Shown here: positions 9,568-27,135 of the stretch, piece after piece
Layout of the letters: each line of letters opens with the position of its first letter
Numbering within the stretch: the stretch's first letter is position 1
From: Herpetosiphonaceae bacterium
GTDB lineage: Bacteria > Chloroflexota > Chloroflexia > Chloroflexales > Kallotenuaceae
Length of the DNA: 64,000 bases
NCBI GenBank assembly: GCA_013821605.1
Contig: JACDGP010000006.1
Location: forward strand, 22,956 to 86,955
Direction of reading: 5' to 3'
Made by a program: the position numbers and the translations under genes
Notes under the pieces: generated by a model
The model's input: the letters and a program-made list of their open reading frames with translations, nothing else
Databases searched by the model: none
Told to the model about the DNA's origin: nothing

Positions 9568-12546
9568 ATGGCTTCTCAACCATCGAACGGTCGCCAGCCT
9601 GGACCAGCGTTGCGACCCACGCGAGGGCGCTCCGCACGCGTAGCTCCACGTCTCCTACGTAAGCTAGGCGGGCGCGGCGTACCGGTGCAGCGGAATGGTC
9701 TACGACTTTTCTTAATCCTGGCTGGGCTCTTCTGCTTATTTGTTCCCACGGTTGCGTTGGGGGCAGGTGCTGTGTATTACACCAACACCGCACAATTGCT
9801 CAGCACCCGGCTCGACAAGCTTAAAACCTATCGTCCTTTTCAACCATCACGCCTCTACGACCGCACCGGCCAGTTGCTGTACGAGTTCGTCTATCAGGGT
9901 CGCCGCGATCCGGTGTCATTGAACCAAATTTCGCCATTGCTACGGAATGCCACGATCTCGATTGAAAATAAAACGTTTTATGAGGACCCCGGAGTTGACT
10001 TTGTCGGCATTGCGAAGGCTGCCTACCGTACGATCTTAAAGCAAGAAGCAAGCGGTGCGTCTACCATTACGCAGCAGCTGATCAAGCTGGTGATTTTGGA
10101 AGACGAAGAGCGGAGCCAGGACAAAGTTGCTCAGCGCAAGCTCACCGAGATCATTCTCGCGCAGCAGCTGACCAAACAATATTCCAAAGACCAAATCTTG
10201 GAGCTTTATCTCAATGAGATCAACTATGGCAATCAGAGCTATGGTATCCAGGCCGCTGCTCAGGGCTACTTTCACAAAAATGCCAGTGCGTTGACCCTCA
10301 ACGAGGCTTCCCTGCTGGCCGGCTTGCCCCAATCCCCGACCACCTATAACCCCATTCAATATGTGAATGCTCAATATGTGCTGCCGAGCGTGACGTTGCC
10401 GCCGCGGGTCTGGCTGAATGATAACTATACGTTGCCGTATGGCACCTTAGCCCCACGTCTGCGTCAGGTTGCCGTGTTGCGCCAGATGGTCCTGAATGGG
10501 GCGGTCACCAAGGTTTCAGAAGAGCAGGCGCGCCGGGCCGTCGCCCAGGACCTCCAATTCGTGCGCCAGCAGGCCCCACTCAAAGCCCCACACTTTGTCT
10601 TCTACGTTAAACAGCAGCTTGAAGACGACCCGGTGCTGAACAAGCTGCTGAGCACCGAAGGTGGCCTCCGTATTACGACCACGCTTGATCTGCGCGTCCA
10701 AACGATTGCCGAGGAAGAAGCAGCGCGCCGCATCAAGGAGTTGAACGATGCCAAGCGCAATATTCATAATGCTGCGGTCGTCGCGTTGCAACCGGGCACT
10801 GGTCAATTGCTGGCGATGGTTGGCTCGATCGATTATAACGGCTCCGTCACTACGACAACGCCCGGCGAACATGGCAATGTGTTGGACGGCAATGTTAACG
10901 TCACGGTTGCGCAACGCCAGCCGGGCTCGGCTCTGAAACCCTTTACCTATTTATCTGCGTTGGAGCAAGGCAAGCTTAATGCCGGCTCTGTCCTATGGGA
11001 TGTTGAGACCCGCTTCCCAATTAAGCTGGGCGCGACCGACAAGAACATCGACAGTAAAGACTTCTGGTACGGCCCAAAAAACTTTGATCAGCGCTGGCAT
11101 GGGCCGATCCGCATGCGTGACGCCCTCGCAAACTCGCTGAACATGCCCGCCGTCCTGGCACTCAAAGCAGCCGGTGTGGGTCCGACCATCGATCTGCTCC
11201 ATGCTGCCGGTATCGGTCCCAAGAGCCTCGGTGAGTCACCCGATCACTATGGTCTGGCGCTCACTCTGGGTGGCGGTGAGGTGACGCCGCTCGATCTAAC
11301 CACAGCCTATAACACGCTTGCCAACGGTGGCATGTATATTCCTACGACGCCGATCCTCCATATCACTGATCGAGATGGCAAAGAACTGGCTTTCAGCGGA
11401 CTACCTCAGCCGAAGCGTGTCGTTGACGAAAAGTATGTCGCTATCATCCGTGACTTCATGGGTGATAATGATGCCCGTATACCGTTGTTCGGCAAAGACA
11501 ACGCCCTTCATCTGAGTCGTCCTTCCCACGCAAAAACTGGTACTACTGAGGACTTTCGCGATGCCTGGGCCCTGGGCTATACACCCTACGTGACCGTGGG
11601 CGTGTGGACCGGCAACAACAATAATGAAAAGACGGCCGAGGTCGAGAGCGTGACGGGCGGTGGTGTGATCTGGAACCGCATCATGGAACGCTTATTTGCT
11701 GATCCTGCTCTCGACAAGCTGTTGCGCGGTCCCAATCTCGAAAAGTCGCTCGACTTTCTCCAACCGAGCGAAGTTGGCGATGTGAAGCGTGACATTTGTC
11801 CACTTGGTGGGCGCTTCGGGCAGCGTGATAACGAATGGTTTGTGCTGGGTGATAATGGTCAGGTGACGACCGGTAAAAATGACTGTGATCTGTATAAAAC
11901 GATCAAGGCAGTACGTGACCCGAATGGTGGCTTTTGTTTGCCACTCAAGGGCATTGATTATGGCGACCGGCTGGTGACCTATAAGGTCTGGAATTTGCCG
12001 AGCTCCCAGGATGATGCCAAGATCATCAGTGGTAAATATGATGGTGGTCAGGCGAAAGTAGCCGCCGGGATCGCTCCTACAGATGCGTGCTCGGCTGACG
12101 TAGCGAGTGCGCCTTATCGCCCGACCTCATCATCGTTTGGCACGCCACCTTATTCTGGCACCTCCGATCAGTCTGGGTTGTTTCAACCTACCCCCGTGCC
12201 ACCGCGTTCCGTTGGTCAGGGCAATGGCGCAAATCCGCCTACGAACCCTCGGCCTGTCGTGCAACCGACAACGCCGCCGGTCGTCCAGCCCGTAGCACCA
12301 CCGACGGCTCCCCCCGCTCCGCGTGGACCGCAGATGCCCGGTCTAGTCGGCTTTGGCGAAAATCAAGCCAAGGCTAAGCTCGCAGCCCTTGGTGTTCCCA
12401 ACATCGTGGTGGATTATCAGGGACGTGACCGCCTTGGTCCGATCTACGACAAATTCCCGGCCTATGCCGTGGTAAGTACGTCGCCGGGCCCCGGGGCTCC
12501 CCTTGATCCGGGTACAACCGTCGTTTTGGGTGTTCGTGCACCCTAA
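9568..12546 (+). CDS. Class A penicillin-binding protein with PASTA-like tail
   Basis: The protein has 992 residues and polymerises and cross-links peptidoglycan. After a basic cytoplasmic tail comes one membrane anchor (~46-70), then a GT51 glycosyltransferase domain (ENKTFYEDPGVD, GASTITQQLIK). The transpeptidase domain carries SxxK at Ser454 (QPGSALKPF), the SxN motif (ANSLNMP) and KTG at Lys656 (HAKTGTT). A Pro/Thr-rich linker follows, then one C-terminal PASTA-like domain (MPGLVGFGENQAKAKLAALG), as in Gram-positive-type PBPs. The ATG at 9568 follows AAGGA. It has its own upstream hairpin boundary and appears monocistronic. The family call is firm; PBP1A versus 1B is not meaningful here. 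Confidence 0.95.
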   Translation: MASQPSNGRQPGPALRPTRGRSARVAPRLLRKLGGRGVPVQRNGLRLFLILAGLFCLFVPTVALGAGAVYYTNTAQLLSTRLDKLKTYRPFQPSRLYDRTGQLLYEFVYQGRRDPVSLNQISPLLRNATISIENKTFYEDPGVDFVGIAKAAYRTILKQEASGASTITQQLIKLVILEDEERSQDKVAQRKLTEIILAQQLTKQYSKDQILELYLNEINYGNQSYGIQAAAQGYFHKNASALTLNEASLLAGLPQSPTTYNPIQYVNAQYVLPSVTLPPRVWLNDNYTLPYGTLAPRLRQVAVLRQMVLNGAVTKVSEEQARRAVAQDLQFVRQQAPLKAPHFVFYVKQQLEDDPVLNKLLSTEGGLRITTTLDLRVQTIAEEEAARRIKELNDAKRNIHNAAVVALQPGTGQLLAMVGSIDYNGSVTTTTPGEHGNVLDGNVNVTVAQRQPGSALKPFTYLSALEQGKLNAGSVLWDVETRFPIKLGATDKNIDSKDFWYGPKNFDQRWHGPIRMRDALANSLNMPAVLALKAAGVGPTIDLLHAAGIGPKSLGESPDHYGLALTLGGGEVTPLDLTTAYNTLANGGMYIPTTPILHITDRDGKELAFSGLPQPKRVVDEKYVAIIRDFMGDNDARIPLFGKDNALHLSRPSHAKTGTTEDFRDAWALGYTPYVTVGVWTGNNNNEKTAEVESVTGGGVIWNRIMERLFADPALDKLLRGPNLEKSLDFLQPSEVGDVKRDICPLGGRFGQRDNEWFVLGDNGQVTTGKNDCDLYKTIKAVRDPNGGFCLPLKGIDYGDRLVTYKVWNLPSSQDDAKIISGKYDGGQAKVAAGIAPTDACSADVASAPYRPTSSSFGTPPYSGTSDQSGLFQPTPVPPRSVGQGNGANPPTNPRPVVQPTTPPVVQPVAPPTAPPAPRGPQMPGLVGFGENQAKAKLAALGVPNIVVDYQGRDRLGPIYDKFPAYAVVSTSPGPGAPLDPGTTVVLGVRAP

Positions 12547-12552
12547 ATGGCC

Positions 12553-12581
12553 TTGACAAGCGTGATTCCACCCCGTATAGT
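12553..12581 (+). promoter_or_regulatory. Near-consensus housekeeping promoter for topA
   Basis: TTGACA and TATAGT are separated by exactly 17 bases, a near-perfect sigma-70-type promoter just after the PBP stop codon. The predicted start of transcription is near 12588, where a strong hairpin begins. Confidence 0.82.
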
Positions 12582-12587
12582 GCTTGA

Positions 12588-12612
12588 GCGGCGCACGTTG
12601 GACGTGCGCCGC
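12588..12612 (+). other. Stem-loop at the predicted 5' end of the topA mRNA
   Basis: GCGGCGCACG-TTGGA-CGTGCGCCGC is a perfect 10-bp stem with a 5-base loop. It is followed by ATCTATAC, not a T tract, so it is a poor intrinsic terminator for the PBP gene. It starts at the base where the topA promoter should initiate, so the transcript would begin with this hairpin. Confidence 0.7.
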
Positions 12613-12644
12613 ATCTATACCTCGGTGGGTTTTAGGGGAAGTAC

Positions 12645-15323
12645 ATGCCAGACAAACTCGTAATCGTTGAGTCGCCGGCGAAGGCGAAAACGATTCAAAA
12701 ATATTTAGGTCCCGGCTATCAGGTCACAGCCTCGATGGGCCATGTCCGTGATCTGCCCAAGTCCCAACTCGGCGTCGATCTCGATAACGACTTCGCTCCG
12801 GCCTACGAAGTTACACCCGATAAAGCCAAGATCGTGCGCGAGCTTCAAGCGGCGATTCGCGGTGCTTCCGCCGTCTATCTAGCTACTGACCCCGACCGTG
12901 AGGGCGAAGCGATCGCTTGGCATATCACTGAAGCAACCCGCATTCCGCGCAGTAAACCGGTCTATCGCGTCGAGTTCAACGAGATTACCAAGGGCGCAGT
13001 TCAGGCTGCGGTCGCCCATCCACGCGAGATCGACCGTCATTTGGTTGATGCTCAGCAAGCCCGCCGCGTGCTTGATCGCTTGGTTGGCTACCGTCTGTCG
13101 CCGCTCTTGTGGGACAAAGTCAAGCGCGGGTTATCGGCCGGTCGCGTACAGTCGGTCGCCGTGCGGCTGGTCGTTGAACGTGATCGTGAGATTACCGCTT
13201 TTAAGCCACAGGAGTACTGGACGATTGAGGCCGATCTCTTGCCGGCGTCCGATGCCAAACCTCAAAAGTTTCGAGCGGTGCTGATCGAACGAGCCGGCAA
13301 AAAGCTCGATAAGTTCGCACTGCCGACCAAGGCGGCTGCCGATGCGATTCTCGTCGATCTTGATGGGGCCAGCTACCGCGTCACGACAATTACGCGCAAA
13401 GACAAGCGGCGCACTGCCGCGCCGCCTTTTACGACCTCGACCATGGCTCAGGAAGCCTCGCGCAAGCTGGGCTATAGCCCCAAGCGCACTGCGCAGATCG
13501 CGCAAGGACTCTACGAAGGGATTGACATTGGTGGCGGCGAAGGTCCAACCGGCCTCATTACCTATATGCGTACCGATTCGCTGAATGTTGCCAAAGAAGC
13601 CCAGGACGAGGCCCGCGACTTCGTGGCGGAGCACTATGGCCCCGCTTATGTGCCCGGCAAGCCGAATATCTATAAAACCAAGTCCAAAGGCGCCCAAGAA
13701 GCCCACGAGGCGATCCGCCCAACTAGTGTGCGGCGCACGCCCGAAGCCCTTCGCCGCTACCTGAATGCCGAGCAGTTCCGCCTGTATGATCTCATCTGGA
13801 AGCGTTTCGTTGCCTCGCAAATGGCCGCCGCCATCTTCGATAGCACAACGGTCGATATCGCTGCCGGTCGCCAACTGCCCGCACATGGTGCTGGGCCCTA
13901 TACCTTTCGCGCAACCGGCAGTGTGCTCAAGTTTCCTGGCTTTCTCGCTGTGTATCACGTTGGCTTAGACGAAGGCGAAGAAGACGAGGATCAAGAAGCG
14001 CTCCTGCCACCGCTCCGTGAAGACCAACTGTTGCGTTTGGTGGAATTATTGAGTGCTCAGCATTGGACGCAGCCACCGCCCCGCTACACCGAAGCGAGTC
14101 TGGTCAAAGAACTCGAACGATTAGGTATCGGTCGACCTTCGACCTATGCGGCCACGATTTCGACCATCACCTCGCGTGATTATGCGCAGGTGACGGATAA
14201 AAAATTGGTGCCGACTACGCTTGGTATGGTGGTGAACGATCTATTAGTTGCACACTTTCCAACGATTGTCGATTACAACTTCACAGCGCAAATGGAGCAA
14301 GAGCTAGACGACATTGCCGAGGGTGAGCGCGCCTGGGTGCCGGTCGTCAGAAGCTTTTTTGAGCCTTTCGAACGCACCTTAGCCACGGCGAAGGACGAAA
14401 TGCGCGGCGTCAAAGGTGAGGTCATTACAACTGATATTCCGTGTCCAACCTGTGGTGCTCCCTTGGCGATCAAATGGGGCAAGCGCGGCGAATTCCTAGC
14501 CTGCTCACGCCATCCTGACTGCTCTTTTACCGGTGATCTTGCCCGCGACGATGAGGGTACGATCCGTCTGGTAGCTCAGCCCCAATTGGCCGAAGTTGAG
14601 CAAATCTGCGAAAAATGTGGCAGGCCTATGGCGCTGAAGAAGAGTCGCTTTGGCATGTTCCTGGCGTGTACCGGTTATCCCGAATGTAAACACACCGTCA
14701 ACCTCCAAAAGGCGAGCGATGGCTCGTTAGTTTCTGCTACGCCCACTGTTACTGATCACGCCTGTGATAAATGTGGCAAGCCCATGGTTCAGAAAAAGGG
14801 GCGCTATGGTATGTTCTTGGGCTGTTCGGGCTATCCCGAATGCAACAACATTGTCAACCTTGATCGCTCAGGACAACCGAAAGCTCCCCCGCAAATTACC
14901 GCTGAACTATGCCCAGCCTGTGGTAAGCACATGGCGATCAAGCAAGGGCGCTATGGTCCTTTCCTAAGTTGCACGGGCTATCCTACTTGTCGCACCCTAG
15001 CAAAATTGCCGGTCGATGGTTCGCTCCCACGGTTACTCTCGGCCGACGAAGTTGCTGCCTTGCCGCCGGAGCCAAAGCCACTCCGCGCCCCCGCTAAACG
15101 TCCAAAGCGCACCGCAGCGGCAGAGACCAAGCCGCAACGAACGGCGGCGAAGTCCTCTACCACAACACGCGCCCCGGCCAAAAAGGCCACCCGAACAACG
15201 TCCGGCAGTAAGCCCTCTACGGCCCCCGTTGCAAAAAAACGGACCAAGCTGGAACCGGCCGTGGTGGCAGCAACAGCAAGTGGAGTAACGCGACGCCCGC
15301 GCGCGGCGAAGCAGCCGGCCTAG
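12645..15323 (+). CDS. topA: DNA topoisomerase I (type IA)
   Basis: The 892-residue enzyme relaxes negative supercoils through a 5'-phosphotyrosine break. The TOPRIM domain opens the protein (LVIVESPAKAKT; YLATDPDREGEAIAWH), and the active-site region GLITYMRTDS holds the catalytic Tyr. Four C-terminal C4 zinc-finger repeats are visible (CPTCGAPL, CEKCGRPM, CDKCGKPM, CPACGKHM), one more than in E. coli. An Ala/Lys/Thr-rich basic tail of about 90 residues follows, probably a DNA-binding extension. The ATG follows GGGGAAGT. It is driven by the consensus promoter upstream. Confidence 0.97.
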   Translation: MPDKLVIVESPAKAKTIQKYLGPGYQVTASMGHVRDLPKSQLGVDLDNDFAPAYEVTPDKAKIVRELQAAIRGASAVYLATDPDREGEAIAWHITEATRIPRSKPVYRVEFNEITKGAVQAAVAHPREIDRHLVDAQQARRVLDRLVGYRLSPLLWDKVKRGLSAGRVQSVAVRLVVERDREITAFKPQEYWTIEADLLPASDAKPQKFRAVLIERAGKKLDKFALPTKAAADAILVDLDGASYRVTTITRKDKRRTAAPPFTTSTMAQEASRKLGYSPKRTAQIAQGLYEGIDIGGGEGPTGLITYMRTDSLNVAKEAQDEARDFVAEHYGPAYVPGKPNIYKTKSKGAQEAHEAIRPTSVRRTPEALRRYLNAEQFRLYDLIWKRFVASQMAAAIFDSTTVDIAAGRQLPAHGAGPYTFRATGSVLKFPGFLAVYHVGLDEGEEDEDQEALLPPLREDQLLRLVELLSAQHWTQPPPRYTEASLVKELERLGIGRPSTYAATISTITSRDYAQVTDKKLVPTTLGMVVNDLLVAHFPTIVDYNFTAQMEQELDDIAEGERAWVPVVRSFFEPFERTLATAKDEMRGVKGEVITTDIPCPTCGAPLAIKWGKRGEFLACSRHPDCSFTGDLARDDEGTIRLVAQPQLAEVEQICEKCGRPMALKKSRFGMFLACTGYPECKHTVNLQKASDGSLVSATPTVTDHACDKCGKPMVQKKGRYGMFLGCSGYPECNNIVNLDRSGQPKAPPQITAELCPACGKHMAIKQGRYGPFLSCTGYPTCRTLAKLPVDGSLPRLLSADEVAALPPEPKPLRAPAKRPKRTAAAETKPQRTAAKSSTTTRAPAKKATRTTSGSKPSTAPVAKKRTKLEPAVVAATASGVTRRPRAAKQPA

Positions 15324-15377
15324 GAACCCATAATTATTGACAGGTTGTGGACATAATCTTTACGGCAAGGAAGGCGT

Positions 15378-16835
15378 ATGGCTGACGTGACAACCCCGGA
15401 ATGGGTCAAGCATGCTGTCTTTTATCAAATCTTCCCTGATCGCTTCGCGAAAAGTGCAACCTTGACCAAGCCGCACAACCTAGAGCCATGGGATAGCGAC
15501 CCAACCACCTATGGCTACAAAGGCGGCGACTTGCTGGGTGTTGTCGAGCATCTCGACTATCTTCAGGAACTTGGTGTGACGGCCCTGTATTTCAACCCGA
15601 TCTTTCAGTCGGCCTCGAATCATCGCTACCACACCCACGACTACTTGCAAGTTGATCCACTGTTGGGCGGCAATACGGCCTTTGCTACCTTGCTTGGAGA
15701 GTGTAAGCGCCGCAACCTGCGAATTGTGCTCGACGGCGTCTTTAATCATGCCAGTCGCGGCTTTTTCCAGTTCAACGATATCCTTGAGAACGGCGCTGCC
15801 TCGCCCTGGCTCGACTGGTTCTTCTTCGATGCCCACCCGGCCAACGCCTATGATCACAACCGGCCACCCGGCTATAAAGCGTGGGTCGGCCTCCATGCTT
15901 TGCCCAAATTCAACACTGACAACCCACAGGTGCGCGAGTTCTTGATGCAGGTCGGTGAGCACTGGGTTCGCCAGGGCATCGATGGCTGGCGCTTGGATGT
16001 TGCGGAGGAGATCATAACGCTAGGTTTCTGGCAAGAGTTTCGGCAGCGGATCAAGGCGATCAATCCCGAAGCCTATATCGTCGCGGAAATTTGGCACGAG
16101 AGCCAACAATGGCTGCAGGGCGATCAATTCGATGCGGTAATGAACTATCCGCTGACCGAAGCGTTGATCTCGTTCGCGATCGGCCACCGCTTGCAGCAGG
16201 AACAAATTGGCGACCGTGGCTATTTCCCGCAGCCGGGGATCAGTGGCAGCACGTTCGCTGATAAACTTGATCGGTTACTCAGCCTGTATCCCTGGCCGAT
16301 CCAGCTGGCGCAGTTGAACTTGCTCGACTCGCATGACACGGCGCGCTTCCTGACGCTGGCCGGCGGTGATCTGGCGAGCATGGAATTGGCTACGTTGCTC
16401 TTGTTTACCCTTCCGGGCGCGCCAAGCATCTACTACGGCGATGAGATTGGTCTCACCGGCGGGCGGACCGACGCGGCGGCTCGCACGACCTTTCCATGGG
16501 AGCATCCCGAACGCTGGAATCAGGCGTTGCTCGCCTTTTACAAACAAATGATCGCGCTCCGGCAGTCCCAATCGGCCTTACAGACTGGCACCTATCAGCG
16601 CGTATATGCCGACGACGCTGTCTATGCTTTCGCCCGCACCCTCGGAGACATGACACTGCTGATTGCAGTCAACGTCGGTGATCAAACGCATCGCGTTCAG
16701 CTACCGCTGGCACATCTGATAGTCGAGGCGATGCTCGGTACTCTCTTATACGGGTCTTGTGAAGATGTTGTTGTGGACGGCAGTACTTTAACGCTAACGT
16801 TGAGTGCCAGGAGCGGTGTAGTACTGGGTCCCTGA
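15378..16835 (+). CDS. GH13 alpha-glucan hydrolase, neopullulanase/cyclomaltodextrinase-like
   Basis: This 485-residue GH13 enzyme has all conserved regions: region I DGVFNH, region II GWRLDVAEE (nucleophile Asp), region III AEIWHES (acid/base Glu) and region IV LDSHDT (transition-state Asp). The N-terminal WVKHAVFYQIFPDRFA is typical of cyclomaltodextrinase/neopullulanase-like members, but the extra N-terminal starch-binding domain of those enzymes is absent. No signal peptide is seen, so it acts in the cytoplasm on maltodextrins or glycogen fragments. The ATG follows AAGGAAGG. It lies 54 bp after topA and may be transcribed with it. Confidence 0.92.
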   Translation: MADVTTPEWVKHAVFYQIFPDRFAKSATLTKPHNLEPWDSDPTTYGYKGGDLLGVVEHLDYLQELGVTALYFNPIFQSASNHRYHTHDYLQVDPLLGGNTAFATLLGECKRRNLRIVLDGVFNHASRGFFQFNDILENGAASPWLDWFFFDAHPANAYDHNRPPGYKAWVGLHALPKFNTDNPQVREFLMQVGEHWVRQGIDGWRLDVAEEIITLGFWQEFRQRIKAINPEAYIVAEIWHESQQWLQGDQFDAVMNYPLTEALISFAIGHRLQQEQIGDRGYFPQPGISGSTFADKLDRLLSLYPWPIQLAQLNLLDSHDTARFLTLAGGDLASMELATLLLFTLPGAPSIYYGDEIGLTGGRTDAAARTTFPWEHPERWNQALLAFYKQMIALRQSQSALQTGTYQRVYADDAVYAFARTLGDMTLLIAVNVGDQTHRVQLPLAHLIVEAMLGTLLYGSCEDVVVDGSTLTLTLSARSGVVLGP

Positions 16836-21180: not shown

Positions 21181-21216
21181 TGTTATAATCCGTCCATTCA
21201 TGTAAAGAAGGAATGG
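21181..21216 (+). promoter_or_regulatory. Extended -10 promoter and inverted repeat before the ATPase/helicase operon
   Basis: TGTTATAAT (21181-21189) is an extended -10 element with a perfect TATAAT; no good -35 is seen. Near the predicted start, CCATTC (21194-21199) and GAATGG (21211-21216) form an inverted repeat that encloses most of the AAGAAGG ribosome-binding sequence, so folding could limit translation of the first gene. Confidence 0.55.
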
Positions 21217-21221
21217 GATCT

Positions 21222-22268
21222 ATGCCCAATGACGCACTGATCGGTGCGCTTGACCAACTGCGCGAATCATATAACCTCCGTCTGAAAGCCACAAATAACC
21301 TGCTAGGATTGCTTAAAAGCACGCCAGGCTTGCTAAGCAAAATCAGCAAAAGCCTCAATGACTATGCTCATCAATCATCTCCTGCCTCATCCGGCACCAT
21401 TGCCAATGCTCAGCAGATCCTAGCCGGGTTGCGACTGAAAGACGAGGTCGTTGATCCACTGGCTCCCGACCTGCGCCGCGAGGTAAAAGCCCTGACCTCC
21501 GTCAGTACCGCATTAAAGGATGCCCTTGCAGCACTGCGTGGTGAAGCTGTTGATGTCGTCCGTTTAGGCCGCGCCTATAACGTCTTGCAAGCGAACCGTA
21601 CTCAAAACATCGAGCTGGAGACAGTGCTTCCTGGCGTTGAAGGCGAACTAGAGCAGGCACAAGCTAGCCTGAGCACCACCTTCGGTGAGACATTAAGAGA
21701 TGCCGTCGTAGCGCGGGGCATGACGCTTGGCGGACGCCCGCCGCGCTTCGCCCTCGGTCGCTTTGACATCAACGTCAATTGGGTGACACGTTCGGCCGCC
21801 CTAAGCTATGGCACAGAATTGCTGGTCGGACGAGTTCCTCTGAGCGTTGATGCGCTGCTGAAAACGTATGATCGCGAAGTGAAAGTGATCATGGGCCGGA
21901 ACGAAAACGGTGAACGCTGGATCGAGCAGTTGTACCAAGCCTGGGACACGGTCCGTAAGAAACGTGCTACAACCGACAAGCGTGTCAATATTGTAGACTG
22001 CTATCTTGAACTGGTGCTGCTCCGCCAACCACGCGCGTTTCGGAGTGCTCCGAGTAAACGTACCATCGTTGACTATACTCGCGCACAGTTTGTCTTCGAC
22101 TTCTTCGAGTTTACCAACGAGCAGCGCTTAGCCTATAACAACCTGTACGTGGCTGCCTCGAATTCTACGAAGTCCCAAACCGATAATCCAGAGAAAAGCT
22201 TCTTTATCGTTGAAGGCTCCAGCCCCGGCGATGGACGCTACATCTCGGACATTGAATTTAAAGCCTAA
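21222..22268 (+). CDS. Unknown protein, first gene of the dual-ATPase/helicase operon
   Basis: The start is set at ATG 21222 (MPNDALIGALDQL) because AAGGA lies nine bases upstream; the ATG at 21213 directly abuts that ribosome-binding site. The 348-residue protein has no membrane segment or recognised enzyme motif. The N-terminal ~160 residues are largely helical with heptad-like spacing (ATNNLLGLLKSTPGLLSKIS; GVEGELEQAQASLSTTFG), suggesting a coiled coil. The C-terminal part (GRFDINVNWVTRSAALSYGTEL...) looks mixed alpha/beta. It is the leading gene of a compact operon with two BrxD-like ATPases and an Lhr-like helicase, so a structural or adaptor role is inferred. No family name is offered. 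Confidence 0.85.
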   Translation: MPNDALIGALDQLRESYNLRLKATNNLLGLLKSTPGLLSKISKSLNDYAHQSSPASSGTIANAQQILAGLRLKDEVVDPLAPDLRREVKALTSVSTALKDALAALRGEAVDVVRLGRAYNVLQANRTQNIELETVLPGVEGELEQAQASLSTTFGETLRDAVVARGMTLGGRPPRFALGRFDINVNWVTRSAALSYGTELLVGRVPLSVDALLKTYDREVKVIMGRNENGERWIEQLYQAWDTVRKKRATTDKRVNIVDCYLELVLLRQPRAFRSAPSKRTIVDYTRAQFVFDFFEFTNEQRLAYNNLYVAASNSTKSQTDNPEKSFFIVEGSSPGDGRYISDIEFKA

Positions 22269-22278
22269 CCTTGGAGTC

Positions 22279-23601
22279 ATGGCATGGCTAGAAAGAGCGC
22301 ATATGTTGCCTGATCCCCGCCTCGCGCGCCAAATCTTTGAAGTGCTCGGCCAATCGGGTACGCCGCTCGGCAAGGGCGTGAGTTACTACAACGTCGGCAA
22401 TGACTCGCTAGTGAATGCCCTAGATAGTCATTACTTGGGCTCGTATCTCGCCGACGGCGGCGCGGTTTTTAAGCTCGTGGTCGGCGATTATGGCAGTGGC
22501 AAGTCCCATTTCTTGTACTGCGTGCGTGACCGCGCTTGGGAGCGTAACTTCGCCGTGAGCAAGGTCGACCTGAGCCCCAAAGAAAGCCCCTATGATGACC
22601 AGCGGCGGGTCTACGCCGCCGTCGCCTCGTCAATTATCTGGCACGAGTTAGGCAGTATGGACGAGGACGAGCGTGGCTTGAGCCGTTTTCTTCAAGGCAC
22701 GTTACGCCGCAACGGTCGTTGGGCTGGCGCGGGCTTTGACGACTCCGATGCCACTGAATCACCCGAGGTGCGAGCCTTGTTGCAAACGCTCGCAATGACA
22801 CCGGTCGATAGCTTAAGCTTTCACAAAGCGATCCAGGGCTATTTCAATGCCCTATTACGTGGCCAAGAGTTGCGTATGGAGTCGCTGGAGCGCTGGTTAC
22901 ATGGTGAAGAGGTGACGCCCGAAGATATGCGCGATCTGCGCTCGATTGGTGTCACCGAGAAAATCAACAAGAACAATGCCTTCAAGATGCTGCGGTCGCT
23001 CTGCCAGGTCGTGCGGGCACTCGGCTACACTGGCTTGGCCCTCTTGTTTGACGAAGGTGATCGTATGCTCAGCGTCGGTGGTCGCTCCGAGAAAATTGCA
23101 ACCGATAATTTGCGGGAGGTCATTGACCGCTGTCGCGAAGATTTACCGGGTGCTTTGTTTATGTATGCTGTGCCGCCCGCCTTCTTAACTGATATTGTGC
23201 CCAAATACCCGGCGCTCCAGCAACGGGTCCAGGCTCCCAATTATTTTTCGCGCTCGAACCCGTTTAGCCCACAAATTAATTTGGATCGCTTGGACATGCC
23301 GGACGAGCAACTCCTCAACAGTATTGGCTCACGCTTGCTCGCGATCTTTGAAGTGGCCTATGATCTGCACTTGAGCGCCGATCTACAGACTCCTAACATC
23401 GAGGTCTTTAGTGAGGCGGCTCGCAATTCATACTTGGCTATCAGCCACCGCCGCTTGTTTATCAAAGCGCTCGTGACTGAATGGTACCGGCAAAAAGAAG
23501 AAGGTGAGCAAGCTGTGACTGCTGACTATGCTGCTGCTGCTATCCGTGGTCAAAGCGAGGCCTTGGAGGCCTTTGCCGACACCCAACAACGGCCCTATTG
23601 A
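22279..23601 (+). CDS. DUF2791/BrxD-like P-loop ATPase (first)
   Basis: The protein has about 440 residues from ATG 22279; ATG 22303 (MLPDPRL) is an alternative with a better-spaced purine stretch. Walker A is at ~69-76 (VVGDYGSGKSHF) and Walker B at ~265 (GLALLFDEGDR). The GDYGSGKSHFL form and the RSLCQVVRALGYTGLALLFDE segment match the DUF2791 family, which contains BrxD of type 2 BREX systems. It starts 10 bp after the unknown protein gene, and its stop overlaps the next start. It probably forms an oligomeric motor or loader with the second ATPase and the helicase. Function unproven. Confidence 0.85.
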   Translation: MAWLERAHMLPDPRLARQIFEVLGQSGTPLGKGVSYYNVGNDSLVNALDSHYLGSYLADGGAVFKLVVGDYGSGKSHFLYCVRDRAWERNFAVSKVDLSPKESPYDDQRRVYAAVASSIIWHELGSMDEDERGLSRFLQGTLRRNGRWAGAGFDDSDATESPEVRALLQTLAMTPVDSLSFHKAIQGYFNALLRGQELRMESLERWLHGEEVTPEDMRDLRSIGVTEKINKNNAFKMLRSLCQVVRALGYTGLALLFDEGDRMLSVGGRSEKIATDNLREVIDRCREDLPGALFMYAVPPAFLTDIVPKYPALQQRVQAPNYFSRSNPFSPQINLDRLDMPDEQLLNSIGSRLLAIFEVAYDLHLSADLQTPNIEVFSEAARNSYLAISHRRLFIKALVTEWYRQKEEGEQAVTADYAAAAIRGQSEALEAFADTQQRPY

Positions 23602-25034
23602 AAGCCACGAGCATGCAGACCCGTACGGTAGTTCATCCTCAGTTGGGACCCGGCACGCTCCTCAAAACCTACATGGGCGGCTTTGAATGGGAGGTGCTCT
23701 TCGAGTCCGGTCGTCGCTTCCGCTTGCCAGCCCGTGAGTTTGAACACGATCCCACTAATGGCAATGAACCGGCCACTGTACCGACCGGCCGCTTCAGCTT
23801 CACGCCGCGCGTTGCGGTGCTGGAAACTGACCAGTTTCGCGCCCGTCAAAGCTTGGAAGCGCTCCGTTTTGGGATTGTGCCTGTACAGGATGCAGAAACA
23901 CTAACGATTGGCCTGGAGGCCGAACGCGTAAGTCTGGACCGCGCCCTCCAGCGTTCTCGTGAACACGGCGGTGATGTCCAGGCGATCATTGGTGATTACG
24001 GCTTTGGCAAGAGCCATTTTATTGAGTTAGCAGCCCGACGTGCCTTGCGCGAAAACATGCTGGTCGCCACAGCCAGCCTGGATTTAGTTGAGGTTCCACC
24101 CAGCAAAGCCAATGAAATCTACCGTGCCCTCGTCCATAGCTTACGCTACCCTGATACGGAGGAGCAGGGATTGGCCCCGCTGCTCCGTAAAGCGGTTGTC
24201 GATCATGGGGTGCTTGAGCAGTTCGCGGCGCAAAGCCCACGTCAAACGGATGATCCGCTGGTTGAGGTGCTCAAGGCGTTGGCTGAATGTCCCAGTCAAC
24301 GTGCCTTCGACGATATCGTGCTTTGGATCAGTGGTCAAATCAAGCCCACCGCCGATCTACGCTCGTGCTTGCGCAAACCGCCGCGCCTGTATGTGGCCGG
24401 CGAGGTTGCTCGCCAATATAGCTATCTACTCACTGGGCTCAGTGTTCTGGCCACATTGCTTGGCTACGCTGGTTTGGCTGTCTTGATCGATGAGTCGGAG
24501 CACTATTCTTTGCTCCGTGCGCGCCAACGTGACAAGGCCGATGCCTGCTTCAAATCATTGATCTATGCGGCACTCGGTCCCGGCAACAGCCGTGTTAATC
24601 CTACGACCATTCCTGACCATACCAAAGTGGCCTATGATCTCACCTTTGCCTCCAAACCCCATCTCTTCTTTTTGTTTGCTCTAACCGAAAGTGAAAATCG
24701 TATGCCGGTTGACCAATGGTTGGCACCGGCTCAAATCATACGGCTCGATGACCGCTTCATCGAGCGGGATATTGTAGAGTTTTTTCGCACCTTGCTGCGC
24801 TATCACAGCTTGGCATACGGTTATACCTACCCGCCGCCGCATGAGCGCTACGACCCCATTATGCGGGAGATCCCTGGTTTACTGGCACGCGCGCTCAACC
24901 AGCATCGCATTAACCTGCGCGAGGTGATTCGGCTAGCCGTAACCACCTACGATCTGCTGTATCTGCACCCTGACTACCTGCCCGACGCCCTCCTTGACGA
25001 GTTGGCCAGCGGATTGCGCCTCCAGCGCTTCTAG
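23598..25034 (+). CDS. DUF2791/BrxD-like P-loop ATPase (second) with N-terminal SH3/Tudor-like domain
   Basis: Starts with TTG 23598 inside the previous stop (TTGA), or ATG 23613 five codons on. The 478-residue protein opens with a small beta-rich domain (VVHPQLGPGTLLKTYMGGFEWEVLF..., residues ~10-50). It resembles the Tudor/SH3-like modules at the C-terminus of UvrD/PcrA helicases and in CarD-type proteins. The DUF2791 ATPase follows, with Walker A GDYGFGKSHF (~residue 132) and Walker B GLAVLIDESEH. It is a paralogue of the preceding ATPase. The extra domain may contact DNA, RNA polymerase or the helicase; that is inference. Confidence 0.85.
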   Translation: MKATSMQTRTVVHPQLGPGTLLKTYMGGFEWEVLFESGRRFRLPAREFEHDPTNGNEPATVPTGRFSFTPRVAVLETDQFRARQSLEALRFGIVPVQDAETLTIGLEAERVSLDRALQRSREHGGDVQAIIGDYGFGKSHFIELAARRALRENMLVATASLDLVEVPPSKANEIYRALVHSLRYPDTEEQGLAPLLRKAVVDHGVLEQFAAQSPRQTDDPLVEVLKALAECPSQRAFDDIVLWISGQIKPTADLRSCLRKPPRLYVAGEVARQYSYLLTGLSVLATLLGYAGLAVLIDESEHYSLLRARQRDKADACFKSLIYAALGPGNSRVNPTTIPDHTKVAYDLTFASKPHLFFLFALTESENRMPVDQWLAPAQIIRLDDRFIERDIVEFFRTLLRYHSLAYGYTYPPPHERYDPIMREIPGLLARALNQHRINLREVIRLAVTTYDLLYLHPDYLPDALLDELASGLRLQRF

Positions 25035-25035
25035 C

Positions 25036-27135
25036 ATGACCGATCTTGCGGCCCGCCGCGCCCTCCAAGCACGGCTTCCCCGCACCTGGAACGCCTTTTT
25101 TGCTCGCCATGGTAACTTTACCGCGACGCAAGTTGCCGCCATCCCGCTGCTCCTGGCTGGTCACAATGTTATGCTGTGTGCTGCCACTGCCAGCGGTAAA
25201 ACCGAAGCTGCCGTCGCCCCATTGCTTGAGCAATACTGTCCGGTCGCCAACCGCGCGGCGGGACTGCGCATCATCTACCTGACACCCACACGTGCTCTAG
25301 CTAGCGACTTAGCGACCCGCCTCGCTGACCCGCTCCGTTCGTTAGGTATCGCATTTGCGGTTAAGACGGGTGATTGGCAATCGTTACGGCCCGGGCGACC
25401 CCCATCGGTCCTGCTGACAACCCCCGAATCGCTGGATTCGTTGCTCACCACACAGCCCCGGCTATTTACCGAGGTAAAAGCCATCATCATTGATGAGTTG
25501 CATTTGTTGCACGGTACACCCCGTGGTGACCAGTTACAAATCGTGCTTAATCGTGTTCGCCGTATTCGTGAGTACGCTGTGACAGACGGTGCAACCGGGA
25601 CCGCTACCATCCAATGTGCTGCACTCTCAGCCACCCTTGCCGATCCAGCAGTAGTCGCGCACCACTATTTTGACGGTGCCCAGCTTGTGACGGTTCCTGG
25701 CAGTCGCCAACTGAGGACTGAAAATATCTCGCTCCCGGCCGGTGAGCCCGCAGCCTTCCTTTCCTATCTCCAAACGCTGCGGGGCAAAGGTATCCGCAAG
25801 GTATTAGTCTTCTGTAACACCCGAGCGGAAGTTGAAGCCTATGCCGCCGCAGTTCGTCCTCAGTCACCCTTTGGCGACGCCGTGTATGTGCATTACTCGA
25901 ATATCGAAGCCCGTCGCCGTCATGAGATTGAGCATCAATTTGCCGGGGACGATGCTGCGATCTGTTTTGCTAGCAACACCCTGGAACTCGGTATCGATAT
26001 TGGTACGATCGACCTTGTCATCTTGTTAGGACCGCCGGGCAGCGTCGCCTCATTTGTACAACGGGTCGGTCGTGGCAACCGTCGCCACCACTACGCGGCG
26101 GTGGCCTGCTTTGACCGGAGCCCGTTGGAACGCCTGATCTTTGAAGCACTTGTGACGGCTGCTCAATCCCCCGCTCCCATGTCGTCGTTACCTGCGGCTA
26201 CTCCGTTCCGCCCATCCGTTGCCATCCAACAAATCTTTAGTTTGCTTAAACAAAGCCCTACCGGTGCGGTGCGTCTGGCCGAACTGGGCCAACTCTTCGG
26301 CACGAAATTGCCCATTGATGATCTCCAGGCCATTTTAGGCCAACTCCACCTTCGCAACTATCTCCGCATCGGTCGCCCCGGCGAATGGCGCGTGGGACCT
26401 CGCTTGAACGAGTTACTGGATCAACAAGCACAGGCACAACCTGGCTTGGGCATTCATAGCAACATCCAGGGCAACGCCGGCTCCATGATCGAGGTGCGTA
26501 ACCAGCATACAAATCAAATCGTGGCTCGTGTCGACACGCCCTGGTTTGACCGGCCTACGTTGACCCTCGAAGGCCGTCCCGTTAATGTTGAATGGTTCGA
26601 TGGCACGGTCTTGTGGGTTGCACCTTCTGCCGGTCGGGATCTCCCCAATCAGCTGCCCTATCGCTCCACGCATCAGCTCTTGAGCTATGAGCTAGCTCAG
26701 TCGCTCGCTGCCCAGGTCGGTCTCGCTCCGGGAGTTGCCCCCATCCTGCCCGCACCCGACGGTTGGTGGTTCCATTGGCTCGGCGATGTCTATGGCCACG
26801 TGCTCCTCGATCTCCTACGCCCGCATCTTGCTGTCGCGCCCACCGAGCAGCTTGGCTTATGCTTGCATCCGGCGGATCAATCACTCTCCCTGCCCTCTTG
26901 GAGTGACGAGCATGTTCGTCAGCACCTGGCGACTCATTACCACGCCATTGAACCAATGCTGGCCTTAGGACCATTTCAGCACTTGTTGCCCGACCAACTT
27001 CGTCGCCAGAGCGTGATCGATCAATTCGATATAGCCCGTTTTCAGCTGGCCCTCGCCGCTCTGCAACCGACTCTCGCCCCCGACTCCCTCACGGTGGACC
27101 TGCGAATACTGCTTGACTCTACGCTCAGTTCCTAA
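25036..27135 (+). CDS. Lhr-like superfamily 2 helicase (BrxHI-like)
   Basis: The start is ATG 25036, one base after the previous stop, not the longer ORF. The 699-residue SF2 helicase has the Q-motif area NFTATQVAAIP, motif I ATASGKTEAA (~residue 52), motif II IIDELHLLHG, motif III LSATLADP, and C-terminal motifs including FCNTRAEVEAYA and FVQRVGRGNRR. The region after ~residue 390 (LKQSPTGAVRLAELGQLFG) looks like the winged-helix domain of Lhr-type helicases. Lhr-like helicases accompany BrxD in type 2 BREX (BrxHI). No PglX, PglZ or methyltransferase gene is nearby, so this is not a standard BREX locus. Confidence 0.9.
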   Translation: MTDLAARRALQARLPRTWNAFFARHGNFTATQVAAIPLLLAGHNVMLCAATASGKTEAAVAPLLEQYCPVANRAAGLRIIYLTPTRALASDLATRLADPLRSLGIAFAVKTGDWQSLRPGRPPSVLLTTPESLDSLLTTQPRLFTEVKAIIIDELHLLHGTPRGDQLQIVLNRVRRIREYAVTDGATGTATIQCAALSATLADPAVVAHHYFDGAQLVTVPGSRQLRTENISLPAGEPAAFLSYLQTLRGKGIRKVLVFCNTRAEVEAYAAAVRPQSPFGDAVYVHYSNIEARRRHEIEHQFAGDDAAICFASNTLELGIDIGTIDLVILLGPPGSVASFVQRVGRGNRRHHYAAVACFDRSPLERLIFEALVTAAQSPAPMSSLPAATPFRPSVAIQQIFSLLKQSPTGAVRLAELGQLFGTKLPIDDLQAILGQLHLRNYLRIGRPGEWRVGPRLNELLDQQAQAQPGLGIHSNIQGNAGSMIEVRNQHTNQIVARVDTPWFDRPTLTLEGRPVNVEWFDGTVLWVAPSAGRDLPNQLPYRSTHQLLSYELAQSLAAQVGLAPGVAPILPAPDGWWFHWLGDVYGHVLLDLLRPHLAVAPTEQLGLCLHPADQSLSLPSWSDEHVRQHLATHYHAIEPMLALGPFQHLLPDQLRRQSVIDQFDIARFQLALAALQPTLAPDSLTVDLRILLDSTLSS

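Follow-up and report, generated by a model that had tools for sequence, protein, structure and literature searches.

In type 2 bacteriophage exclusion (BREX), a AAA+ ATPase of the BrxC/BrxD family (BrxD) is encoded ahead of BrxHI, a superfamily 2 (SF2) helicase of about 700 amino acids (aa). A 2026 survey of BREX, in which neither Shango nor Chloroflexota is mentioned, proposed a role for BrxD like that of replicative helicase loaders, with BrxHI as the helicase to be loaded or activated (PMC12839542). A comparable pair occurs in Shango, a small operon without a recognizable nuclease, in which the TerB protein SngA accompanies a BrxD-like ATPase (SngB) and a helicase (SngC). The SngC, BrxHI, DruE, and DpdJ helicases have been described, in the paper on Hachiman, as a potentially distinct clade of immune SF2 helicases (PMC12278908). 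What BrxD and BrxHI do in BREX, and how Shango works, is unsettled. Here we describe a four-gene operon (G1 to G4) in a 64,000-nucleotide stretch from a Herpetosiphonaceae bacterium of the Chloroflexota (assembly GCA_013821605.1, contig JACDGP010000006.1, forward-strand positions 22,956 to 86,955), referred to below as the window. The operon seems to isolate the ATPase–helicase core of these systems together with one partner: G1, a member of a new protein family, is followed by two different BrxD-like ATPases (G2 and G3) and a BrxHI-related helicase (G4). This module of the BrxD–BrxHI type is widely spread and apparently undescribed; our literature search found no paper describing the four-gene set, with the proviso that subscription papers or preprints may hold one.

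Gene order and distribution of the operon

The operon occupies positions 21222-27135 of the window on the plus strand (Table 1). Its four intact genes are co-directional and in frame, with gaps of 10 bp between G1 and G2, 11 bp between G2 and G3, and 1 bp between G3 and G4, which bears out the compact operon proposed in a preliminary description made from the sequence alone. That description also placed an extended −10 promoter ahead of the genes. The motif is there, but a generic −35/−10 scan picked up no sigma-70 site at this position, so it is the extended −10 motif by itself that points to an operon promoter. In Pfam searches, G2 and G3 matched the BrxC_BrxD family (PF10923; 3e-43 and 2e-27, respectively), and G4 matched DEAD and Helicase_C. 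The two window genes were the only PF10923 matches in the genome, leaving no further BrxC/BrxD gene, and PglZ (PF08665) had zero matches across the genome; the operon is therefore not part of a BREX system located elsewhere in this genome, to which it could have supplied missing parts. PglX and PglW are not among the operon genes or their direct neighbors, a statement limited to the operon and its flanks because no genome-wide search for these two proteins was run. The data support the four genes being one distinct functional unit rather than a broken BREX, and a chance arrangement is excluded because the identical gene order recurs in other phyla.

When 84,980 species genomes were searched with the G2 family, 80 loci were obtained, or 84 when four loci fetched earlier are included. 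G1 adjoined G2 in 83 of the 84, always before it and with G3 behind, and G4 was also present in 58. Since these loci were selected mostly through G2, and many of the contigs end early, a search with G1 only is the stronger test of co-occurrence. Among 400 Chloroflexota genomes, the G1 profile found 11 carriers, and in all 11 G1 stood before two tandem BrxD-like genes. In Myxococcota, G1 was found in 68 of 284 genomes (24%); G1, G2, and G3 were together in each of the 20 loci read out, 16 of which also had G4. G1 is thus a constant companion of both ATPases, and these genomes clearly contradict the case, named in the preliminary description as refuting, in which its homologues never occur with the ATPases and helicase. 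The complete G1-G2-G3-G4 order recurs in Chloroflexota, Myxococcota, Deltaproteobacteria, Armatimonadota, and two plasmids, while the carriers as a whole comprise Chloroflexota, Myxococcota, Deltaproteobacteria, Bradymonadales, an Armatimonadetes metagenome-assembled genome, UBP9, a cyanobacterial plasmid, and a Desulfomonile plasmid. Compared with an Oscillochloris relative, the window proteins are 56% (G1), 81% (G2), 70% (G3), and 53% (G4) identical; G1 and the helicase appear to change fast and the first ATPase slowly.

The preliminary description had regarded the operon as a stable lineage trait beside core genes. In the window, it does follow ffh-rpsP-khpA-rimM, but in two other Chloroflexales carriers it lies on contigs away from rimM, and none of five genomes from the same family has it. 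Copies in Anaerolineae encode a G2 that is 77–79% identical to that of the window, though their Ffh is only 54–58% identical; other Anaerolineae-type genomes have an Ffh at about 60–63%, yet their G2 is 54–57% identical. Because G2 identity exceeds that of Ffh in the former copies, transfer between classes is indicated, and the operon is not a stable lineage trait. After rimM, relatives have a purH-containing block where the window has other genes, so comparison with an empty site gives no clean insertion junction at rimM.

Table 1. Genes and motifs of the operon, with positions in the window.
Feature	Position	Strand	Remarks
Extended −10 motif TGTTATAAT	21181..21189	+	Probable operon promoter, on a sequence basis; no −35 match
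G1, 348 aa	21222..22268	+	New family; N-terminal coiled coil and C-terminal alpha/beta domain; companion of both ATPases
G2, 440 aa	22279..23601	+	BrxD-like AAA+ ATPase; best conserved of the four proteins
G2 Walker A (GDYGSGKS)	22483..22506	+	G72, G74, and K75 invariant in the alignment
G2 ALQQR motif, candidate arginine finger	23212..23226	+	Q315 and R316 invariant in the alignment
G3, 473 aa	23613..25034	+	Second BrxD-like AAA+ ATPase; N-terminal beta barrel
G3 small beta barrel, putatively SH3/Tudor-like, residues 4-39	23622..23729	+	AlphaFold2 model
G3 Walker A (GDYGFGKS)	23991..24014	+	Y129, G130, G132, and K133 invariant in the alignment
G4, 699 aa	25036..27135	+	SF2 DExH helicase related to BrxHI/SngC; own clade
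G4 helicase motif I (TASGKT)	25186..25203	+	T51, A52, G54, K55, and T56 invariant in the alignment
G4 helicase motif II (DELH)	25492..25503	+	D153, E154, and H156 invariant in the alignment

The four proteins and their described relatives

G1 belongs to a new protein family without a known fold match. Its coiled coil spans residues 4-164, and the AlphaFold2 model is of high confidence (predicted local distance difference test [pLDDT], 94.9; predicted template modeling score, 0.84). Searches of Pfam, NCBIfam, and PADLOC gave zero matches, and no fold in the PDB matched the model at E<=0.001, the resemblances being limited to coiled coils. The 54 members of the G1 family had no meaningful Pfam match, TerB was absent from G1 and 53 homologues in a Pfam search, and a hidden Markov model (HMM) of G1 gave no hit to any of three SngA (TerB) proteins at E<=10. 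An assignment of G1 to TerB or another known domain was consequently rejected, as none of these searches gave a usable match and the fold matches were driven by the coiled coil. A match to G1 in G409 was likewise spurious, reflecting the coiled coil of an M23-peptidase-like protein.

By sequence and, for G3, by modeled fold, G2 and G3 are AAA+ ATPases of the BrxC/BrxD family that resemble ORC/Cdc6, and a role in helicase loading is predicted. Alignment showed the Walker B acidic pair to be conserved in G2 and Walker B to be kept in G3. The two ATPases differ in sequence: the ALQQR motif was found in 45 of 47 G2 proteins vs. none of 47 G3 proteins, and the N-terminal barrel motif in 39 of the 47 G3 proteins. 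The nearest solved folds to the G3 model (mean pLDDT, 90) are ORC/Cdc6 subunits of MCM-loading complexes and RuvB, at about 11% identity and with modest template modeling scores of approximately 0.3–0.45. These are loaders or motors on DNA; however, the operon has neither a replication partner nor RuvA. G4 keeps SF2 motifs I, Ia, II, III, V, and VI in an alignment of 24 homologues.

All of this raises the question of whether the set is a derivative of a described system, either a Shango lacking TerB or the BrxD–BrxHI part of a type 2 BREX without the remainder. The PADLOC matches are compatible with such an origin: G2 was called as BrxD (117 bits) or SngB (94), G3 as BrxD (82), and G4 as BrxHI (215) or SngC (186). 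Yet the scores of G2 and G3 against the NCBIfam BrxD equivalog NF033438 (116.7 and 80.6 bits) are far under its cut-off of 350. In a maximum-likelihood tree, 30 of 30 G4 helicases were split off by a branch with 100/98 support, with BrxHI and SngC together on the opposite side; G4 looks like a further branch near the SngC/BrxHI/DruE/DpdJ clade. The G2 tree likewise set a main group of 30 rows apart from BrxD and SngB (support, 100/99), while the G2 proteins of the two plasmids and of genome G216 fell near BrxD/SngB with weak support; G3 formed one group. Differences in gene content run the same way. Where type 2 BREX has the BrxD–BrxHI dyad, the window set has two ATPases and the new partner G1, with no PglX, PglZ, PglW, or BrxC at the operon. 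Shango differs in having a single SngB and a TerB protein, to which the G1 HMM found no similarity. The conjugative plasmid of Aulosira laxa NIES-50 (AP018310.1; L125 2651-24287) carries a complete eight-gene BREX (brxE-brxA-brxB-brxC-pglX-pglZ-brxD-brxHI), and directly behind it, in the same orientation, come G1-G2-G3-G4; since this BREX has its own BrxD and BrxHI, the set is no substitute for them. A derivative of Shango or BREX is largely refuted by these observations, and we consider it very improbable. The set would instead be a third kind of BrxD–BrxHI-type module, beside type 2 BREX and Shango.

Two further families of systems touch the set at particular loci. For example, in genome G216, from the same class as the window (L106 1496-10563 with L182 467-7061), the four genes are nested in an Hma or DUF499-centered BREX-Related (BR) locus, between its ATPase and methyltransferase genes: HmaC/DUF499, DUF7680, G1 to G4, the HmaB/DUF1156 methyltransferase, and HmaA/PLD-helicase. 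However, no Hma/BR genes adjoin the window operon, and elsewhere the set occurs alone. A link to DISARM is seen in the six-gene version of four deltaproteobacterial loci (L072 383-3254, L079, L080, and L091 171-3127), where two more genes stand ahead of G1, one for an SNF2 helicase resembling DrmD/BrxHII and the other for a protein of roughly 390 aa that is cysteine-rich at its C-terminus and matched nothing in Pfam. DrmA, DrmB, and a methyltransferase were not seen beside those four loci, and the DrmD-like gene is absent from the window operon.

Mechanism and purpose of the set

In the model that we favor, G2 and G3, as two different ORC/Cdc6-like ATPases, would assemble on nucleic acid, probably in a mixed ring or arc. 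Such mixing is suggested because divergent paralogues are kept side by side and ALQQR occurs in G2 only. G1 may act as an adaptor, using its coiled coil and C-terminal domain to hold or steer the two ATPases, and the assembly would in turn load or switch on G4, its cargo, which could then translocate on the target and remodel it. The target would likely be the DNA of an invading phage or plasmid, or else an intermediate that such invaders create. In keeping with a joint function, identities between pairs of loci are correlated across the four genes (0.81–0.89 between their pairwise-identity matrices), although any co-inherited genes would be expected to show this. Taken whole, this model, in which a heteromeric AAA+ complex loads an SF2 helicase onto invader DNA, is one that we are as ready to doubt as to believe.

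The helicase itself need not be of one kind. In distant Chloroflexota carriers, G4 is exchanged for an XPB/PbeA-like SF2 protein (L108, 5274-9977) or for an SNF2 protein of the ZorD/DpdE-like kind together with a small extra gene of about 200 aa (L110, 2415-7977; L111, 2274-8397). In these distant operons (L108, L109, L110, and L111), the first ATPase lacks Walker A and the second keeps it. Because the helicase is swapped in distant carriers, the data point to a constant core made up of G1 and both ATPases and to a helicase that is an exchangeable tool. It is tempting to see here a widespread, unnamed anti-invader system built of G1, a divergent BrxD-like pair, and an exchangeable SF2 helicase (BrxHI-, SNF2-, or XPB/PbeA-like), a view that we hold tentatively and with slightly more doubt than belief. 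If it is true, a non-replicative helicase-loading platform has been reused in bacterial immunity; the variants suggest that ORC/Cdc6-like loader logic was recruited with different helicases across lineages.

As to purpose, the preliminary description proposed a distinct nucleic-acid remodeling or anti-phage machine. The constant association of G1 with the ATPases and the absence of BREX uphold a distinct remodeling unit, whereas the anti-phage role is plausible only. It is predicted from four kinds of context, namely adjacency to BREX, nesting in Hma/BR, carriage on plasmids, and transfer between classes. The four-gene set adjoins or sits inside known defense loci in three lineages. Besides the loci already described, an AbiE pair, a PD-(D/E)XK gene, and an integrase are found alongside the set on the Desulfomonile plasmid pDESTI.01, and in genome G038 a tyrosine recombinase gene is directly upstream of the set and a PLD-domain gene downstream. 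We judge an anti-invader purpose to be somewhat probable.

Other evidence weighs against that purpose, and part of it suits a role in genome maintenance, in which the loader–helicase complex would work on the host's DNA, at stalled forks, R-loops, or damage, as a dispensable repair module kept or lost by lineage. The majority of copies have housekeeping genes around them, and their flanks do not look like defense islands. In one Myxococcota clade (L177-L180), the order rluD, operon, Lon-like gene, NAD kinase is conserved and G4 is shortened to about 540 aa, a pattern that resembles vertical inheritance; given such repeated housekeeping contexts in Myxococcota, repair fits as well as defense. 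Six loci of the Caldilineaceae/Litorilinea type encode RecJ no more than three genes upstream of the set. Defense genes are sparse in the flanks, where a handful at most of 119 non-redundant proteins matched PADLOC at 1e-20 (no control flanks were scanned), and the operon encodes no effector such as a nuclease, methyltransferase, or protease. None of the phage records and viral contigs searched carries the four-gene set, and a phage or viral-contig origin was rejected on these zero matches. Composition gives no sign of a recent import, as the GC content of the operon (0.563) matches that of the window (0.569). On the other hand, a repair module sits poorly with the patchy presence in Chloroflexota (11 of 400 genomes), with copies that crossed classes or are carried by plasmids, with insertion beside BREX and within an Hma/BR locus, and with the kinship of the set to BrxD/BrxHI and SngB/SngC. 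Repair is, in our estimate, unlikely, and less probable than the anti-invader purpose.

The substrate could also be RNA, with the helicase acting on transcripts or R-loops and the ATPases as its remodeling partners. Either nucleic acid can be the substrate of SF2 DExH helicases of the Ski2/Lhr kind, and the small barrel of G3 is of a kind able to bind RNA or protein. Against this, G3 is similar in fold to DNA-bound ORC/Cdc6 and to RuvB, and the nearest relatives of the set belong to DNA-targeting defense systems (PMC12839542, PMC12278908). An RNA-directed machine therefore seems improbable, and DNA is the substrate that we would expect for the loader–helicase model.

Since it contains no nuclease or methylase, the set offers a pared-down setting for studying the function of the ATPase–helicase core. 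Clonable copies are available on plasmid pDESTI.01 of Desulfomonile tiedjei (10215-15641) and in the isolate Lujinxingia vulgaris TMQ2 (NZ_VOSL01000054, locus L083).

Additional genes in and around the operon

Other genes accompany the set in some lineages. In several Myxococcota, a conserved protein ending like EGLDELAALF follows G4, or G3 (L078 9050-10660, L084 7844-8773, L093 8558-9925, and L169 15323-16870), and possible relatives of it are encoded upstream on the opposite strand in L165 and L176. The two such proteins that were tested had no Pfam or PADLOC match. Just upstream of G1 in Caldilineaceae (L060/L062/L063, 1200-7000) are genes for an AAA_21 protein (PADLOC, HEC-01A), a small partner, a PD-(D/E)XK nuclease, and RecJ. 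Extra genes also interrupt the operon in Anaerolineae and relatives. In L036 (10675-11577) the inserted gene is for a CARF/Csx1-like nuclease, whereas in L045, L051, L052, and L066 AAA fragments and toxin–antitoxin-like genes (PIN, Phd, and nucleotidyltransferase) lie between G2 and G3 or between G3 and G4.

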